A stretch of 40,723 bases of DNA from a virus. Position numbers and translations under genes: made by a program. Each line of letters begins with the position of its first letter. The stretch's first letter is position 1. The stretch spans positions 1 to 40,723 of the IMG/VR virus record IMGVR_UViG_3300006789_000004. The stretch is one strand, 5' to 3'. The notes under the pieces were generated by a model. The model made no database searches and was not told where the DNA came from. It saw nothing but the letters and a program-made list of their open reading frames with translations. Shown piece by piece: positions 2,973 through 10,681 of the stretch.

Positions 2973-4457
2973 TTAGTCCTCCCAGGGTATTATGTTATGT
3001 GTCCAATCTTTTTCTGATTTAAATTCATCTAAATCATCCTGTATACTTCTCCATCCTCTATCAGAAGGATCTTTTAAATTTTTCTTTTGTATAATCTCAT
3101 TCATGTCATAGTTAGCAGCTGCATTTAAATATCTCCAGGTATCTATTAAATGGTCATTTCTCTTGGGTATATCCCCTTTATCTGTTCGTACATAGTTTTG
3201 TACTTCCCATTTAAGCTTTACCATACGATCAGTAAAAGTTATAGTATCATATATCATTTGATCTTTACATAATGACAGCCCATTTTCTTTTTTATGTAAA
3301 TGTTTAGCTGTAGGCATAAAGTAATCTCCATATTGTCCCATTAATTCAGTAGCAAACCAAGCTGCTGCTTCATCATATACTTTATACCAATCCTCTACAT
3401 CTATATGAGGATTCAATTCTTTCATTTTAGCTTTTATCCTAGGATAAATCTGCCTAACTGTTGTATTCGTCTGGTCAGTCTCGTAGAGTTCGTCAAGAAT
3501 ATACACCTGTTTAGTATAAGGATTGATAGCAGCAAAAAGAACGGCAAAACAAGTAGTGGAGCCAGGGTCAGTAATGCAATACCAATCAAGTTTTTTAATA
3601 TCTTTTGATAGTTCATTTAGGACTCTTCCGAAGGGTTGTAATTTTTTGGGGTCAAACATTGGGAAAATAGCGTTCCTTCCTCCCAAGCTAATTTGTCCAA
3701 AATACTCTCGTTGGATGACATCATCTTCACCACGTAACCTGAGCTTTTCAATTTCCCTGTCGATTTCCTCAGAAGGGATGTGGGGGTTATCATAAGATGA
3801 CGCGATAATATGTGCGCAGTCTTTCCTACTAAGACATTCATCAGCAAACTCCATGTATTGATCTTGGTTACGATCACCTGGCTTAGGCGGTGTACCAATT
3901 ATTATTAAAGGCGCTTTACGAACAATACGGTTTGGATTCATCTCAGTATGGAACATAGGATGAAATACCTTAAATTCGTCATATACGACAAAATCAGGTG
4001 TAAGTCCGTTAGCAGCAGCCCAGTTCTCTGAGCCTACTATTTTTATTGTACTATTATTTTTAAATGTTATACGAGAATCTGTATTAGCTATAGTTTTTAT
4101 ATACTTTTTTAATGGCTCTTCTCCACCTGGAAGTAGTCTACCTTTATCATCTGTTTCTCTACCAAATTTAGATAATCTACCATTATGCCAAACAAGTTCT
4201 CTACCGTGAGCTAGTTCAGGTGTAATGTAGTAACATGTAGAGCCTGGATGTAATAGGGCATGTCTCCACAGCATGTATACTGCGAAGTCAGTTTTACCCC
4301 ATTTACGTCCACATTGTATAAAGACCGTACCTACATCTCCCTTAATTAAAGGCATCCCTACCTTTACTTGTCCCTCATGGGGAGCCCAGTACTTATGCAG
4401 ATCTTCCATGATTTGCAGATATAAGGCATCACTAGGTTTTAGGTCTATTAAGCTCAT
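2973..4457 (-). CDS. terL: Terminase large subunit (ATPase/nuclease)
   Basis: A 494-residue packaging motor. The N-terminal ATPase has a Walker A-type motif CGRKWGKT (residues 49-56) and a Walker B motif VVYDE (157-161). The C-terminal RNase H-fold nuclease shows an acidic motif ITDPGST (near residue 297) and the HLIDTWRY motif close to the C-terminus. It acts with the small subunit and portal to translocate and cut concatemeric DNA. The ATG overlaps the stop of the upstream ClpP-like gene as ATGA, implying translational coupling. The central part (about 3500-3990) looks richer in G+C than the flanks, a possible recombination patch. Confidence 0.95.
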   Translation of the reverse strand: MSLIDLKPSDALYLQIMEDLHKYWAPHEGQVKVGMPLIKGDVGTVFIQCGRKWGKTDFAVYMLWRHALLHPGSTCYYITPELAHGRELVWHNGRLSKFGRETDDKGRLLPGGEEPLKKYIKTIANTDSRITFKNNSTIKIVGSENWAAANGLTPDFVVYDEFKVFHPMFHTEMNPNRIVRKAPLIIIGTPPKPGDRNQDQYMEFADECLSRKDCAHIIASSYDNPHIPSEEIDREIEKLRLRGEDDVIQREYFGQISLGGRNAIFPMFDPKKLQPFGRVLNELSKDIKKLDWYCITDPGSTTCFAVLFAAINPYTKQVYILDELYETDQTNTTVRQIYPRIKAKMKELNPHIDVEDWYKVYDEAAAWFATELMGQYGDYFMPTAKHLHKKENGLSLCKDQMIYDTITFTDRMVKLKWEVQNYVRTDKGDIPKRNDHLIDTWRYLNAAANYDMNEIIQKKNLKDPSDRGWRSIQDDLDEFKSEKDWTHNIIPWED

Positions 4458-5164
4458 CTTCTTCTAGGACTTTTTGCGCGTTCAACTCTAGTATATCCAA
4501 TTAAAGGACATTTAGTAGAGTATACTGTATAAGACCCAAAGAATGTATTAACAGTCTTACTAGTCTCTTTATTAACAAGTTCTTTACTGCAAGATACGTT
4601 TTGAATAGCGTCTACAAAATTTTTCTTTACGCAATCGTGCCCATGACACCAATAATCATCCTTTGCTAAGGATTGATACTTTTCTAAAGAGAGGTTCATA
4701 CGTTTAGCATTTACTTTTTCCATAGATTGAACAATACCTGTCCATAACTTTAGTTGGGTTTCTACAGATCCATTATTAAAGGTACCTCTAAAGCTCCCTG
4801 AGGCTCTGTGTGCCATAGAAGATACATTAGGTACGCCATATCTCTTACCTGGACATGCTTGCAGGAAATGGTGTCCCATAGAGTACGCTCTAAGAGCTAT
4901 ACACTCCACATTCCGAGGTATCGTAGCAAAGAGCTGAACAAAATTGAGCCCGTCGTAGACAGAACCACCAGGACTATCAAGAACAAGATATATCGTGCTC
5001 CTGGGCTTAGTTTTGAAGCTAAGTTGGAGCAATTCTTTTGAAGCTTTAGCAACAGATTTCGCATTTACGACCCCCTTAAATAGAATATGATTATTCTCTG
5101 TTAGTGTTATCTGACTCAGAGCTAATGTCGGAATCAGAAGCATTAGTGCTATCAGTATTTTCAT
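4454..5164 (-). CDS. Signal-peptide-bearing ClpP/SppA-like serine protease
   Basis: A 236-residue protein. I chose ATG 5164 over the in-frame ATG at 5209 because it has a GGGAG ribosome site 8-9 nt upstream and directly begins a classic signal peptide (MKILIALMLLIPTLALSQ). The ClpP/crotonase-type protease core follows: DSPGGSVYDG (residues 63-72, oxyanion loop), nucleophile Ser95 in AYSMGHH, His119 in MAHRAS, and a DDYW...FVDAI segment near 169-187 matching where ClpP has its Asp. ClpP-like proteases in phages usually mature the prohead, but this one appears exported, and it has Cys residues (104, 173, 178) compatible with an oxidising periplasm. It lies between terS and terL and overlaps both. 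Confidence 0.85.
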   Translation of the reverse strand: MKILIALMLLIPTLALSQITLTENNHILFKGVVNAKSVAKASKELLQLSFKTKPRSTIYLVLDSPGGSVYDGLNFVQLFATIPRNVECIALRAYSMGHHFLQACPGKRYGVPNVSSMAHRASGSFRGTFNNGSVETQLKLWTGIVQSMEKVNAKRMNLSLEKYQSLAKDDYWCHGHDCVKKNFVDAIQNVSCSKELVNKETSKTVNTFFGSYTVYSTKCPLIGYTRVERAKSPRRR

Positions 5165-5624
5165 CTTTGATCTCCCTAAACGACGCATCCTCGATGTAGA
5201 ATGGGTCATTTTTTAATTTAGCCTTTAACTCGATAACCGTAGAAGGCTTGTGTTCACTAATTATATCGGTAGGCTCACCATCATCTAATCTGATGATACG
5301 ATCAATCTCAGATACGATATTGGTAAGCAATCGAGCTTCGTGTATTGTAGGCGGTTTATCTCTTTTCTTCAAGTCTTCAATCGCCCTATCTACGCAATCC
5401 AGTGAATTAGACGTGAGGCTAACTAATATAGCTCTCTTGTTATCTGCTAGATCTCGTAAAATCTCTTTTCTTATCATGTTTCGCTCTTCTTCCCACTTCT
5501 TCTTGTGGTAAACAAGCGTCCGGTATTTGATACCTAGTACTGAAGCTATCTCTTTTAGCGGTTTAAAGTCCATAAACATGGTTTTAGCCGCAGTTAGGTC
5601 ATATTTTGACTTAATTTCGCTCAC
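5091..5624 (-). CDS. terS: Terminase small subunit (DNA-recognition)
   Basis: A 177-residue protein with an N-terminal helix-turn-helix (residues ~8-36: LTAAKTMFMDFKPLKEIAS followed by a GIKYRTLVYHKKKW recognition helix), a central helical oligomerisation region and an acidic, Ser/Asp-rich C-terminus. This architecture and its place upstream of terL match small terminase subunits, which bind the packaging site and recruit the large subunit. Its 3' end overlaps the ClpP-like gene by 74 bases. No specific recognition site could be identified. Confidence 0.8.
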   Translation of the reverse strand: MSEIKSKYDLTAAKTMFMDFKPLKEIASVLGIKYRTLVYHKKKWEEERNMIRKEILRDLADNKRAILVSLTSNSLDCVDRAIEDLKKRDKPPTIHEARLLTNIVSEIDRIIRLDDGEPTDIISEHKPSTVIELKAKLKNDPFYIEDASFREIKDENTDSTNASDSDISSESDNTNRE

Positions 5625-5943
5625 TTAGGTACTCCCATAGTTCAGGGTTATCGTTAATTAGTTGCATCAGAACTGGAGATATTAATCTTATAAGATTTTC
5701 CTCTTTATCAAACTCTTTTTTATCAGGGTCAAAGTTAAATACAGCTTCTGCCTTATCTTCCATGACCACATGTAATAATTCATGTAGTAGTGTTTCCCTG
5801 GTAATCTCTTTATTCTTACATTTGTATATAGTTACTGTTTTGTTATGCGAGTCCGTCTTACCATACATTTCCTCAGCATCCTCAGGGGACCAGTAGATAG
5901 ACCACGTAAAACAGCCTGATGTAAATTTAGTAGGTTTTCGCAT
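5611..5943 (-). CDS. HExxH zinc-metalloprotease-like protein
   Basis: A 110-residue protein with TLLHELLHVVMED, i.e. a zinc-binding HExxH (residues 54-58) as in ImmA/IrrE-, SprT- and other small metalloproteases. It is the first gene of the late leftward operon, next to the control region, and overlaps terS by 14 bases. A likely ribosome site (AAGG) lies 10-11 nt upstream of the ATG. The family in phages is mostly uncharacterised; IrrE/ImmA-like members cleave repressors, so a regulatory protease is possible. The catalytic motif is seen; the substrate is not known. Confidence 0.7.
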   Translation of the reverse strand: MRKPTKFTSGCFTWSIYWSPEDAEEMYGKTDSHNKTVTIYKCKNKEITRETLLHELLHVVMEDKAEAVFNFDPDKKEFDKEENLIRLISPVLMQLINDNPELWEYLSERN

Positions 5944-5993
5944 TATCTTACCTTAACACACTATATTGCAGAAGTCAATGTACGGATGGCAGC

Positions 5994-6025
5994 TTTTAAA
6001 CATATCGCTTCGCTCATGTTTAAAA
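5994..6025. repeat. Perfect 10-bp inverted repeat (operator or hairpin)
   Basis: TTTTAAACAT (5994-6003) and ATGTTTAAAA (6016-6025) are perfect complements around a 12-base spacer. No U-run follows on either strand, so it is not an ordinary terminator. The dyad lies ~50 bp upstream of the first late gene and could be an operator or an activator-binding site. Confidence 0.6.
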
Positions 6026-6045
6026 AAGTCTACGCTTACGCCTGT

Positions 6046-6231
6046 GGGGGGAGGAATATCTATAAATATGCCTCTCTTCCAGTGTAAAATCAACCTAATG
6101 CCTAAGTTAGCGTGATTACGGGGGGTTACGTGTCTAGGGGGTAGCTGAAAAATATAGAAAAAATACGTGTGGAGGACTATAACTTATATTACTCTTCTAT
6201 ATCCTGAGTGGGGGGGTTAAAAAAGAGGGGG
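6046..6231 (+). other. Cluster of G5-G7 runs on the + strand
   Basis: Runs of G occur at 6046-6051, 6120-6125, 6137-6141, 6210-6216 and 6227-6231, all on the + strand, in an otherwise AT-rich genome. They are spaced about 70, 12, 70 and 11 bases apart. The spacing is too wide for a textbook intramolecular G-quadruplex, but the one-sided G bias is not explained by coding. Possible roles: protein-binding repeats, origin or packaging signal. Confidence 0.5.
6059..6088 (-). promoter_or_regulatory. Weak candidate sigma-70 promoter for the late operon
   Basis: On the minus strand TTTACA (6088-6083), 18 bases, then TATAGA (6064-6059). It points into the HExxH gene and the structural operon. The -35 is 5/6 and the -10 4/6 against consensus, so this is only a candidate; no better leftward promoter was found in the region. 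Confidence 0.3.
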
Positions 6232-6254
6232 CTAGTTTAGGCAACAAGCTTGTC

Positions 6255-6269
6255 TGGCACGAGGTGAGC
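6255..6269 (+). promoter_or_regulatory. Second, imperfect sigma-54-like element
   Basis: TGGCACG (6255-6261), four bases, GAGC (6266-6269). The invariant GG (-24) and GC (-12) doublets have correct spacing, but the -12 element lacks TT. A third TGGCAC (6315-6320) has no GC at -12. These are either weak sigma-54 sites or repeated binding elements. Confidence 0.4.
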
Positions 6270-6330
6270 TGAAATGTTTAAGATGGTTTGTGTGGGAGAG
6301 AGGACAGACTTTACTGGCACTAGACTTAGT

Positions 6331-6346
6331 TGGCACGAGACTTGCA
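6331..6346 (+). promoter_or_regulatory. Exact-consensus sigma-54 (RpoN) promoter core
   Basis: TGGCACG (6331-6337), AGAC, TTGCA (6342-6346). This matches the TGGCACG-N4-TTGCW sigma-54 core at every defined position, with a pyrimidine before it. Predicted transcription start is near 6357, rightward, giving a ~140-base leader before the first early gene. Sigma-54 promoters need an enhancer-binding activator; none is recognisable among the phage genes, so a host activator would be required. Confidence 0.7.
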
Positions 6347-6355
6347 CAGACTAGC

Positions 6356-6383
6356 TTGGCAAGAAAACCCTGGATTTTATACT
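6356..6383 (+). promoter_or_regulatory. Sigma-70-type promoter for early genes (upstream)
   Basis: TTGGCA (6356-6361), 16 bases, TATACT (6378-6383); 5/6 matches in each hexamer. It overlaps the predicted sigma-54 start point, so the two polymerase forms would compete for this DNA. Confidence 0.5.
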
Positions 6384-6435
6384 ATAATGATATGATAAAC
6401 TATAAACTTTTATTTAATAATAATATTTATTTTTC

Positions 6436-6464
6436 TTGACGCGTTATAATTTATTTGATAAGAT
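6436..6464 (+). promoter_or_regulatory. Sigma-70-type promoter for early genes (downstream, strong)
   Basis: TTGACG (6436-6441), a 17-base spacer, and TAAGAT (6459-6464), preceded by a very AT-rich upstream stretch that could act as an UP element. The start point would be about 6471, 27 bases before the first early ATG. This is the best vegetative promoter seen in the window. Confidence 0.7.
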
Positions 6465-6497
6465 TACTGCAAGACATAAAAACTTAGGGAGGTTCAC

Positions 6498-6662
6498 ATG
6501 TCAGACAAAACACAAACACTTTCAACAAAGATTCTTAAACTACCAGCAATACCTACAGACGTAGAGGTTCAATGGGATGCAGAGGTTGACGAATGTCGTC
6601 GATCGGTCGAACGCACAGACGTTTGGTGGTTAAATATTAAAAAACTTAACAATATAGCATAA
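6498..6662 (+). CDS. First early protein, 54 aa, unknown
   Basis: A 54-residue ORF starting at ATG 6498 with a strong TAGGGAGG ribosome site (6485-6492) and lying ~27 nt downstream of the best sigma-70 promoter. It has a TKILKLPAIPTDVEVQWDAE segment and a C-terminal RTDVWWLNIKK segment, with no membrane span or known motif. Being the first gene expressed on entry, a host-takeover role is possible but not shown. The strong translation signals make it credible despite its size. Confidence 0.65.
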   Translation: MSDKTQTLSTKILKLPAIPTDVEVQWDAEVDECRRSVERTDVWWLNIKKLNNIA

Positions 6663-6676
6663 CTTAGGAGGTTATA

Positions 6677-7066
6677 ATGAATATTTTTAAACAATTTGCA
6701 CTTATTTCAGCAGAACGTAAAGAATTAACACCACACGAGAATGAAGCTCGCACGAATCAGTTAAAACTAATGTTAAATCAGTCTAAATTTACTTTCGTTG
6801 AGGGTCAAGGCTTTTATAATAATCATAAAGAGGTTACATTTTATGTTGAGTTACCAAAACAAGACGATATTGAACGCATTGAAATGATAGGTTTAGATAG
6901 ATTTCAGCAAGATTGCGTTGCTATTCAATACCCAGATGGTCATACTAGATTGCATTATCCAAACGAAATACAACATATAGGCAAAATTAGGCAAGTAAGT
7001 GAAAAAGCAGCTAAATCAAGTAATGCTTATAGCGTTTTTAATGGAATTCATTATGCGACTGTTTAA
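6677..7066 (+). CDS. Early hypothetical protein, 129 aa
   Basis: Starts at ATG 6677 behind a TTAGGAGG ribosome site. Soluble, mixed alpha/beta composition with a central FYVELPKQDDIERIEMIGLD segment; no motif recognised. It is in the leader gene cluster of the early operon, followed by a 14-base overlap with a tiny membrane ORF. Confidence 0.7.
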   Translation: MNIFKQFALISAERKELTPHENEARTNQLKLMLNQSKFTFVEGQGFYNNHKEVTFYVELPKQDDIERIEMIGLDRFQQDCVAIQYPDGHTRLHYPNEIQHIGKIRQVSEKAAKSSNAYSVFNGIHYATV

Positions 7067-7526: not shown

Positions 7527-7731
7527 TGATATGGACCCAACTGAAAAACTAGCTTCATTGTTTATAAATATAACAGTTGAGCAAGCTTTATACAGAATCT
7601 GTTATGTATTTTCCTTATTTGCAGTACTTGCGGCTATAACAGCTGGCATGATCTATGCAGGTATATGGTTATACGAATTAAAAACTAGCTTAGGCATTGA
7701 TATAATCCCAGGCTTTTCATTCTTTCACTAG
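7516..7731 (+). CDS. Small membrane protein, 71 aa
   Basis: I chose ATG 7516 (site AAGGAGG at 7501-7507) rather than the upstream start at 7465. The protein has a polar N-terminus and one long hydrophobic segment of ~25 residues (VFSLFAVLAAITAGMIYAG), then a short tail. It could sit in the inner membrane. No holin-specific features beyond size and the helix; function unknown. Confidence 0.6.
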   Translation: MNFNDMDPTEKLASLFINITVEQALYRICYVFSLFAVLAAITAGMIYAGIWLYELKTSLGIDIIPGFSFFH

Positions 7732-8851: not shown

Positions 8852-9498
8852 TGAATAAAAAAGAACGTAATGAAAAGATTAAACAAGCGAAAGATTTCTA
8901 TGCTAAGTATAAGTTTGCTAAACAACAAGCGAGGGAGTTTAGGTATAAGATAGTGAAGTTATGTGATGAAGTTTGCCACATTCATTATGGAGGTAGGGAT
9001 AAAGCCCACTTGGAGGATATTAAATTAGGTAAGATTTATACATTAAAACAGTTTGCATTAGATGTAGGTGTAAATCCTATGACGCTACAGAAATGGAGTG
9101 AAGAATATAGAAATATTGTAAAGCCCCTGGAGGAGGAGGGTTTAATAACTACAGAGAAAATGACTAAAGAGACTGCTATTATCATTAGAAATATGGCTAG
9201 ACCTATAAATAATAGGATACGCAGGGATACACCTAAGGAAAAGGTTATTGAAAGATTTAGAGAGGTATGTAATTCCAGTAAAGAGGATAGATTGTTAGAG
9301 CGTTACGTACTAGCTGCTAACAGTGTATTTAATTTTGTTAATGAGCATAGGTTAGACAAATTGAATCAAGAGCAAGTAGGGTATTTACGTAACGTAATTA
9401 ATAAAATACATGATAAGTTAAAACCGGAGAACCTAGATCTTAATGCTAAACCAATAGTTAAAAATACTAAAAGGAGATACGATAATGCAGGCTTTTAA
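8851..9498 (+). CDS. Helix-turn-helix DNA-binding protein, 215 aa
   Basis: Basic, helical protein. Residues ~62-88 (IYTLKQFALDVGVNPMTLQK then WSEEY) read as a helix-turn-helix with a recognition helix, as in MerR/phage regulatory folds. The rest is charged helices with no enzymatic motif. It starts TAATG-coupled to the gene before it and overlaps the PhaR-like gene after it; the pair look like regulators placed together in the early operon. Target unknown. Confidence 0.55.
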   Translation: MNKKERNEKIKQAKDFYAKYKFAKQQAREFRYKIVKLCDEVCHIHYGGRDKAHLEDIKLGKIYTLKQFALDVGVNPMTLQKWSEEYRNIVKPLEEEGLITTEKMTKETAIIIRNMARPINNRIRRDTPKEKVIERFREVCNSSKEDRLLERYVLAANSVFNFVNEHRLDKLNQEQVGYLRNVINKIHDKLKPENLDLNAKPIVKNTKRRYDNAGF

Positions 9499-9766
9499 AG
9501 GACACTTAATTAGAAAGTACAGTAACAGAAAATTATATTCTGTAACAGAGAGTAAACATGTAAACCTGGAGTTTGTAGCAGAAGAGTTCCGTAAGGGAAG
9601 TGCCTTTATTGTAAGGGATGCGAAAACCCAGGCAGACCTAACGGTCGATACCTTAGTTAAAGCCTTAGCGAGCAGCGGCGCATTTAATGACCAGGTTGAG
9701 ACGCAGAACTTAAAGAATATGCAAGACAACCTAACCTTACAAGGGATAAAAGTAAATGTCATCTAG
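9485..9766 (+). CDS. PhaR-like (PHB accumulation regulator) DNA-binding domain protein
   Basis: A 93-residue protein. Residues ~8-62 (LIRKYSNRKLYSVTESKHVN, then FVAEEFRKGSAFIVRDAKT and ADLTVDTLVKAL) match the PHB/PHA accumulation regulator N-terminal domain: KY-NR-LYD, followed by V/I-T/N-L, then F-V-DAKT-DLT. In bacteria this domain (PhaR) binds DNA and polyhydroxyalkanoate polymer and represses phasin genes. Here it is essentially the whole protein; the usual C-terminal extension is missing. Ribosome site AAGGAGA; overlaps both neighbours by 14 and 11 bases. A phage regulator captured from host carbon-storage control is the natural inference. Confidence 0.75.
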   Translation: MQAFKGHLIRKYSNRKLYSVTESKHVNLEFVAEEFRKGSAFIVRDAKTQADLTVDTLVKALASSGAFNDQVETQNLKNMQDNLTLQGIKVNVI

Positions 9767-10166: not shown

Positions 10167-10311
10167 CGAGATTACATTTGATGATCTAGCAGAGGCAATG
10201 GCAGATTTAACTATAGAAGTACGGATTCTAGAGACAAAAGTTCAACGGTTATCAGAACTTCGTGATACTCTTGGTTATGTGCCAATTTACGAGACTGGAG
10301 GCAAACAATAA
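10147..10311 (+). CDS. Coiled-coil small protein, 54 aa, GTG start
   Basis: GTG at 10147 has GGGGAGG at 10135-10141, much better than any upstream ATG in the same frame. The product is mostly a heptad-like helix (IEVRILETKVQRLSELRDTL). It overlaps the previous gene by 20 bases and is overlapped on the opposite strand by the 3' 101 bases of the RusA-like gene. Confidence 0.55.
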   Translation: MAKDKNNEITFDDLAEAMADLTIEVRILETKVQRLSELRDTLGYVPIYETGGKQ

Positions 10312-10681
10312 ATTTGTCATCAATGTCAAAGTTTTCAATGATAACTCCATCAATCTCCCTACCATTGTAGCGTGATTCGAATAGGTTATCTTGAATAAGT
10401 TTTTCAATATTGGTGAGGTCCATGCTTCGTCGTGAGATCTCTCCCTTTTTAGTGAGGAGTATTTTAGATGGATAAAAAAAGTCATAAGAAACGGATAACG
10501 CATGTTTTGTTGAGTTCCATTGCTGCTTTAGCGATTGTATTTGTTGGAGTACCTCTGGTTTCTGCAATAGAAGTAGAAAATCCGAGCGCCACGTTCGTGC
10601 TTCTTTTGTTAGTTGTCGGTTCTTATAGTACGCTTTATTTACGCTAAAGGGTTTAGATTTAATGGCAAAGGAGACTATCAT
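10211..10681 (-). CDS. rusA: RusA-like Holliday junction resolvase, on the strand opposite to its neighbours
   Basis: A 156-residue protein. The N-terminus (KPFSVNKAYYKNRQLTKEAR then TWRSDF) matches the RusA P-P/F-S-x-N-x-x-Y...W region. The catalytic segment SMDLTNIEKLIQDNLF (Asp88, Asn91, Lys94) plus a downstream IDD (residues 120-122) corresponds to RusA D70-L-D72-N...K76 and D91; Asp72 is replaced by Thr90. RusA resolves recombination/replication junctions as a dimer. It is the only minus gene within the + block, has no ribosome site, and an extended -10 promoter ends 6 nt before its ATG, suggesting leaderless expression. Confidence 0.75.
   Translation of the reverse strand: MIVSFAIKSKPFSVNKAYYKNRQLTKEARTWRSDFLLLLQKPEVLQQIQSLKQQWNSTKHALSVSYDFFYPSKILLTKKGEISRRSMDLTNIEKLIQDNLFESRYNGREIDGVIIENFDIDDKFIVCLQSRKLAHNQEYHEVLITVELLSLESVLL
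10468..10647 (+). CDS. Candidate 59-aa two-helix membrane protein nested antisense to rusA
   Basis: ATG 10468 has a GAGGAG site at 10453-10458 and encodes a basic N-terminus (MDKKSHKKR) followed by two hydrophobic stretches separated by a short loop containing EVENPS. It lies entirely inside the RusA gene on the other strand and would fill the gap between + genes ending at 10311 and starting at 10680. The strong ribosome site and positive-inside layout favour it; hydrophobic ORFs can also arise by chance antisense to A/T-ending codons. Confidence 0.4.
   Translation: MDKKSHKKRITHVLLSSIAALAIVFVGVPLVSAIEVENPSATFVLLLLVVGSYSTLYLR

Follow-up and report, generated by a model that had tools for sequence, protein, structure and literature searches.

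Transcription of phage genes is generally ascribed to sigma-70 or to phage polymerases, whereas the sigma-54 polymerase stays silent until an ATPase activator signals the state of the host. Because of this gating, phages using sigma-54 would couple the timing of infection to host physiology. What, then, does a sigma-54-like site do between two operons of a marine phage? The site in question lies in a circularly closed record (IMG/VR IMGVR_UViG_3300006789_000004; the whole stretch of 40,723 nucleotides is referred to here as the window), whose first 123 bases recur at its end (∼40.6 kb net, GC 36%).

The intact predicted −24/−12 element, TGGCACGAGACTTGCA (TGGCACG-AGAC-TTGCA), occupies positions 6331 to 6346 of the plus strand. 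The core is complete, with GG at −25/−24, GC at −13/−12, and the fixed spacing TGGCAY-N5-TTGC. The window contains one copy of TGGCACNNNNNTTGCW, against 0.01 expected from shuffles. To score sites we used a matrix built from 42 intergenic-sense E. coli sigma-54 sites mapped by ChIP-seq (Table 1 of PMC4591121). On this E. coli matrix, the element reached 21.7 bits and was the top site of the window. The 42 E. coli sites themselves ranged from 9.2 to 21.9 bits (median, 17.1), and the best site in random window-like sequence averaged 14.1 bits. Since the −12 C corresponds to C6345, transcription is predicted to start at ∼6357. A preliminary description of this DNA had reported an exact match to the sigma-54 consensus in a noncoding divergent region, aimed at the early operon. 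Both points were borne out: the element lies within the divergent noncoding control region (5944 to 6497) and faces the early operon, with 152 nucleotides between the site and the first ATG.

Two operons diverge from this region. The leftward one, on the minus strand, begins with an IrrE/M78-like gene (5611 to 5943; PF06114, weak; phrog_1233) and a candidate for the DNA-binding small terminase subunit (TerS, 5091 to 5624; phrog_4151; adjoining TerL), and also includes a head protease, TerL (2973 to 4457, minus strand), and portal (601 to 2715). The rightward, early operon opens on the plus strand with a small open reading frame (ORF) of 54 amino acids (6498 to 6662; 75 to 79% identical in relatives G002 and G003) and a SAM lyase, an early counter-restriction-type gene (6677 to 7066; PF23780, E 1e-20; phrog_2226). 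It continues with a pyrimidine-dimer glycosylase-like gene, a PhaR-N domain protein, prim-pol, an exonuclease, and PolA. A small early gene at 9485 to 9766 (plus strand) encodes the domain with which PhaR, a regulator of PHB/PHA accumulation, binds DNA (PF07879, E 7e-14); it is unusual for a phage, with homologues in G002, G003, and G008 and none in phage isolates. A RusA-like gene (10211 to 10681) runs on the opposite, minus strand within the early operon and was kept in 14 of 14 relatives checked (30 to 87% identity); at its start is a sigma-54-like sequence, ATGGTATGATTCTTGCA (15.9 bits), that recurs in relatives.

The control region carries further features. Upstream of the first sigma-54 site, at 6120 to 6140 and 6209 to 6231, lie G-run pairs (GGGGGG, ∼12 to 15 nucleotides that are often T-rich, then GGGGG), which are conserved across eight relatives and are candidates for a packaging site, a regulator site, or a DNA structure. 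A conserved block, GTGTGGGAGAGAGG (6288 to 6303), separates the first site position from the second and is recognizable even in distant relatives. A perfect 10-bp inverted repeat, TTTTAAACAT-N12-ATGTTTAAAA around CGCTTCGCTC, marks the left edge of the region (5994 to 6025), and close relatives have a similar hairpin (TTTTTACA...TGTAAAAA). Many contigs among the relatives (L013 to L030, L038 to L049) end in or near the divergent region, 1.3 to 2.4 kb upstream of TerL; these ends may be physical genome ends or may reflect high local variation.

Relatives were collected with TerL as the query, in sets of 50 and 80 loci. Of those extending into the divergent region, most carry TGGCAY-N5-TTGC in it, commonly in 2 to 4 copies with differing spacers. 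When seven close relatives were aligned, the −24 and −12 bases proved invariant and the spacer variable, and the window's site at 6331 to 6346 aligned with the conserved early-facing site. Across 15 relatives, TGGCAY-Nk-TTGC matched 23 times at k = 5 versus 0 to 3 times at any other k (range, 0 to 15), and nearly all of the k = 5 matches fell inside the divergent region. Early proteins diverge strongly among these genomes while the element stays, and clusters are also present in four distant relatives (44 to 50% TerL identity). Many relatives, G004, G007, and G009 among them, have in addition a reversed copy facing the TerL operon, which the window does not. Two relatives (G005 and G010) had no good site, and none was found in a third (G014), whose contig ends near the region. 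Other high-scoring sites of the window (at 7643 and 31189) had no counterparts among the top sites of relatives. Judged by these alignments, the element is kept by selection in relatives: both boxes and the layout persist as the spacer changes. The comparison with related phages thus came out in favor of the preliminary description, whose central claim of a real sigma-54 element in a phage control region gains further strength from the independent E. coli ChIP data. The evidence supports reading the element as a genuine sigma-54 −24/−12 recognition sequence.

Within the window, the one intact early-facing copy is accompanied by three decayed copies, all on the plus strand. At 6255 to 6269 is TGGCACGAGGTGAGC (11.2 bits), where relatives have an intact TGGCACGAAACTTGC; at 6315 to 6329 is TGGCACTAGACTTAG, whose −12 box is lost; and at 6357 to 6371, 26 bp from the intact site, is TGGCAAGAAAACCCT. 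The 26-bp separation of full or partial copies also occurs in four relatives (L025, L026, L027, and L032). From this comparison, the window element is a local remnant of site arrays, a small cluster in which it alone has stayed intact. The preliminary description mentioned neither this cluster nor the copies that, in relatives, often face the other operon. The preliminary description had further placed a sigma-70 promoter across the start point. The overlap stands, in that the predicted start falls within TTGGCA (6356 to 6361), the −35-like box of a plus-strand sigma-70-like match, TTGGCA-16-TATACT (6356 to 6383). This is a consensus match that does not exceed chance, sigma-70-like matches in the window alone numbering 8 against 8.0 expected. 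The sigma-70-like promoter at 6436 to 6464 (TTGACG-17-TAAGAT, plus strand) has a TTGACA-17-TATAAT-like counterpart at the same place in seven relatives (L013, L018, and L023 to L027) and is better supported than the match at 6356 to 6383.

No close cultured relative was found with TerL, portal, PolA, primase, or the PhaR-like protein, and a TerL search of genome contigs returned no host match. TerL alignment gave two distant matches in metagenome-assembled genomes (36 to 39% identity), one from Alphaproteobacteria and one labeled Proteobacteria; both genomes contain rpoN. Strong Shine-Dalgarno sites, TTGACA/TATAAT promoters, and the PhaR-N gene together point to a host in Proteobacteria. The Pyr_excise-like gene was rejected as a host marker, being widespread in phages.

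We scanned IMG/VR for two TGGCAY-N5-TTGC-type sites close together, in tandem or divergent orientation. Each pattern matched at least 120 stretches, with fewer than about one estimated by chance. A control with an N4 spacer gave 0 matches, and one with an N6 spacer gave 14, which look like coding-sequence repeats, are mostly identical or near-identical, and contain no N5 sites. Among the matches listed, 216 array loci held 254 arrays of 2 to 10 sites, comprising 533 distinct 17-mers, and links through shared proteins sorted these loci into 35 groups, or ∼35 lineages: a large one with 177 loci and 34 that are small. The arrays are intergenic: their centers fell in ORFs of at least 150 amino acids in 25 of 230 cases among the matches listed, whereas 54% of random positions did so. 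In the genomes of large array phages such placement is uninformative, since most of them are covered to >90% by simple ORF calling. Where an array family is frequent, almost every flanking gene is transcribed away from the array. In other lineages, arrays lie next to genes for terminases of various families, exonucleases, a primase, and an anti-restriction and a tail protein, and the GC content of array phages spans 31 to 57%. Array phages of 36 to 51 kb have nearly all of their sites at a single locus. In those of 82 to 223 kb, sites are spread mainly along one stretch of 10 to 30 kb rather than at one point, as expected of promoters. Two other loci (L313, 2054 to 4550, and L376, 5077 to 7056) have pairs of sigma-54-like sites every ∼0.5 to 1 kb along runs of small ORFs, resembling a gene-by-gene promoter cassette; the divergent pairs of L376 flank a spacer containing CCGGTTCGG. 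Tandem pairs were absent (0) from 398 Pseudomonadota genomes, although single sites are common in bacteria (27 of 40 genomes), which marks clustering as a phage feature.

We then considered what reads these sites. The five spacer positions, left free in the search pattern, follow the E. coli sigma-54 base frequencies (r = 0.83, the best of 120 position permutations). A purine follows TGGCAY in 95% of array sites, and position 17, which the search pattern partly fixes, is A/T in 93%. To our knowledge, no factor other than sigma-54 has TGGCAY-N5-TTGCW specificity. The sigma-54 DNA-binding domain (PF04552) was absent from the window record and from 50 array-phage records, some of them possibly fragments. 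Genes for activators, the enhancer-binding ATPases (bEBPs; PF00158), were not detected in 15 relatives, and the 50 array phages gave one weak match; no activator or enhancer site was recognized. With no convincing gene in any of these sets, a phage-encoded sigma-54 or activator was rejected. Nor was any protein family common to 16 array genomes, the widest being PolA in 10. Since the array phages tested have neither a shared protein family nor a sigma-54 DNA-binding domain, a host-encoded reader is needed, and that reader is probably host sigma-54.

The best explanation, to which we give a probability of roughly 0.62, is that the window carries a site for host sigma-54 holoenzyme (E-sigma-54) with a bEBP-gated rightward start, and that the arrays are a multisite docking element. 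Host E-sigma-54 would bind 6331 to 6346 as a silent closed complex. There it might contend with sigma-70 polymerase for the −35 region that overlaps the start, and an active host bEBP might then trigger a rightward start at ∼6357 into the early operon; both steps are conjecture, as are the switch between the two holoenzymes and the tie of infection to host nitrogen, stress, or motility activators that the preliminary description proposed. Such a start, reading into the small ORF, the SAM lyase, and the genes beyond, would add to the output of the sigma-70 promoter at 6436 to 6464. Because the phages have no convincing bEBP gene, a host activator would be needed, and the phage-shock (psp) system, which phage infection itself sets off, would make an appealing candidate pathway. 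Elsewhere, arrays probably serve as multisite E-sigma-54 docking elements regulating divergent operons; what clustering might add is a matter for conjecture.

The geometry of the arrays bears on this explanation. In 209 nonredundant arrays, start-to-start distances of tandem sites fell at 25 to 29 and 35 to 41 bp, with almost none at 30 to 34, and those of divergent pairs at 20 to 25, 30 to 36, and 40 to 43 bp, the search patterns imposing floors of 25 (tandem) and 20 (divergent). Convergent pairs, free of this constraint, were 18 to 22 bp apart. Array spacing keeps a helical period of about 10.5 bp; the phasing P values are indicative, given the search floors and the nonindependence of related arrays. 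A simple promoter reading is strained most by the convergent sites, which at 18 to 22 bp leave no room for a full holoenzyme on each, and arrays with sites 18 to 29 bp apart in both orientations misfit the use of one site as one promoter. Orientation was biased as well. In 95 nonredundant TerL-linked arrays, 253 sites pointed toward the non-TerL (early) side and 147 toward the TerL side. At the early end of the array, the outermost site pointed outward in 65 of 95 arrays (P = 0.0004), and the outermost TerL-side site pointed toward TerL in only 34 of 95. Arrays thus favor the early side, yet they are not clean promoter pairs. A universal sigma-70 promoter beside the array was rejected, being found on the early side in 13 of 86 cases versus 5% in shuffles.

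Tandem pairs being absent from the 398 bacterial genomes, such an arrangement falls outside ordinary promoter practice, and its presence in many otherwise unrelated phages suggests a phage use of sigma-54 not seen in the bacteria examined. A tentative alternative, clearly behind the docking explanation in our estimation, is that in phages of many lineages the phased arrays bring together several molecules of host sigma-54 or E-sigma-54 as a nucleoprotein switch between operons rather than acting as ordinary promoters, so that infection depends on or seizes host sigma-54. If so, the host's most tightly gated polymerase would have been turned into a binding scaffold. It is unlikely that the array is instead a sponge or roadblock, capturing E-sigma-54 or free sigma-54 in silent complexes that titrate host sigma-54 or shut the divergent promoters, with no starts from the sites. 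High-affinity-like sites, clustered in both orientations at spacings too tight for productive promoters, would suit such capture, as would the lack of a phage activator (one weak match in 50 array phages). Sigma-54 sites beside sigma-70 promoters have been proposed to repress or activate (PMC3844500), and for many E. coli sigma-54 sites no promoter role is known (PMC4591121). However, helical phasing and a constant location between operons are more than a pure sponge requires, the early-side bias suggests directional use, and the window has a single intact site.

Two further readings assign the repeats to a protein other than sigma-54. That a phage protein (TerS at pac/cos, a replication initiator, or a repressor) recognizes them, the motif merely coinciding with the sigma-54 consensus, is somewhat less likely than capture. 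In the window family and the largest array family the repeats are indeed multicopy, phased, and confined to a single locus by TerS/TerL, and conserved G-runs and other blocks adjoin the sites. However, the array lineages share no protein family, large phages have sites over 10 to 30 kb, the motif does not drift along with phage proteins, and the spacer too follows E. coli sigma-54 preferences. Recognition by TerS at a pac site was rejected specifically, since homologues of the window's TerS candidate occurred in only 4 of 16 array genomes and gene contexts were varied. We consider it improbable that the reader is an unrelated host DNA-binding protein: spacings of 18 to 29 bp with helical phasing do resemble a small cooperative protein, and no such pairs occurred in the bacterial genomes searched, but the match to sigma-54 extends to noncore positions. 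Chance, which the single exact copy in the window might suggest, was rejected given 0.01 copies expected and conservation with variable spacers in relatives.

The array class is an unexpected result and a variant on known sigma-54 sites; we found no description of phage sigma-54 arrays in the literature searched, subscription journals lying outside its reach. Arrays are also a searchable sequence signature, one that predicts rpoN in the hosts of these uncultured phages. Among known systems, the psp promoter is driven by sigma-54 and PspF and is part of a host response to phage infection. It has the same type of sigma-54 element as the phage but drives a host operon, and the phage region yielded no PspF-type site. 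Bacterial sigma-54 promoters mapped in E. coli (PMC4591121) resemble the phage sites in the core bases, the 5-base spacer of TGGCAY-N5-TTGC, the purine first in the spacer, the A/T after GC, and their intergenic position aimed at an operon. In contrast, the sites of the relatives are clustered at 2 to 10 per locus, in both orientations, 18 to 41 bp apart. Overlapping sigma-70 and sigma-54 promoters compete at glmY and glmZ, glnA has separate sigma-70 and sigma-54 promoters, and additional sigma-54 sites may hasten the search for promoters or else exert repression or activation on neighbors (PMC3844500). As in regions of the glmY/glmZ type, the phage site lies over or beside a sigma-70 promoter where the holoenzymes can compete; however, glmY and glmZ have a single sigma-54 site and known activators, whereas the phages have repeated sites, viral genes, and no recognized activator. 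Functions of the Gifsy-1 prophage bear on expression of the sigma-54/RtcR-dependent RNA repair operon (PMC9879122), but there phage genes affect a host sigma-54 operon and Gifsy-1 itself is not under a sigma-54 site array. Aeromonas phage phi-1422 has a gene for a sigma-54-type regulator (PMC3391216); its link to sigma-54 runs through that gene, whereas here the link runs through DNA sites.
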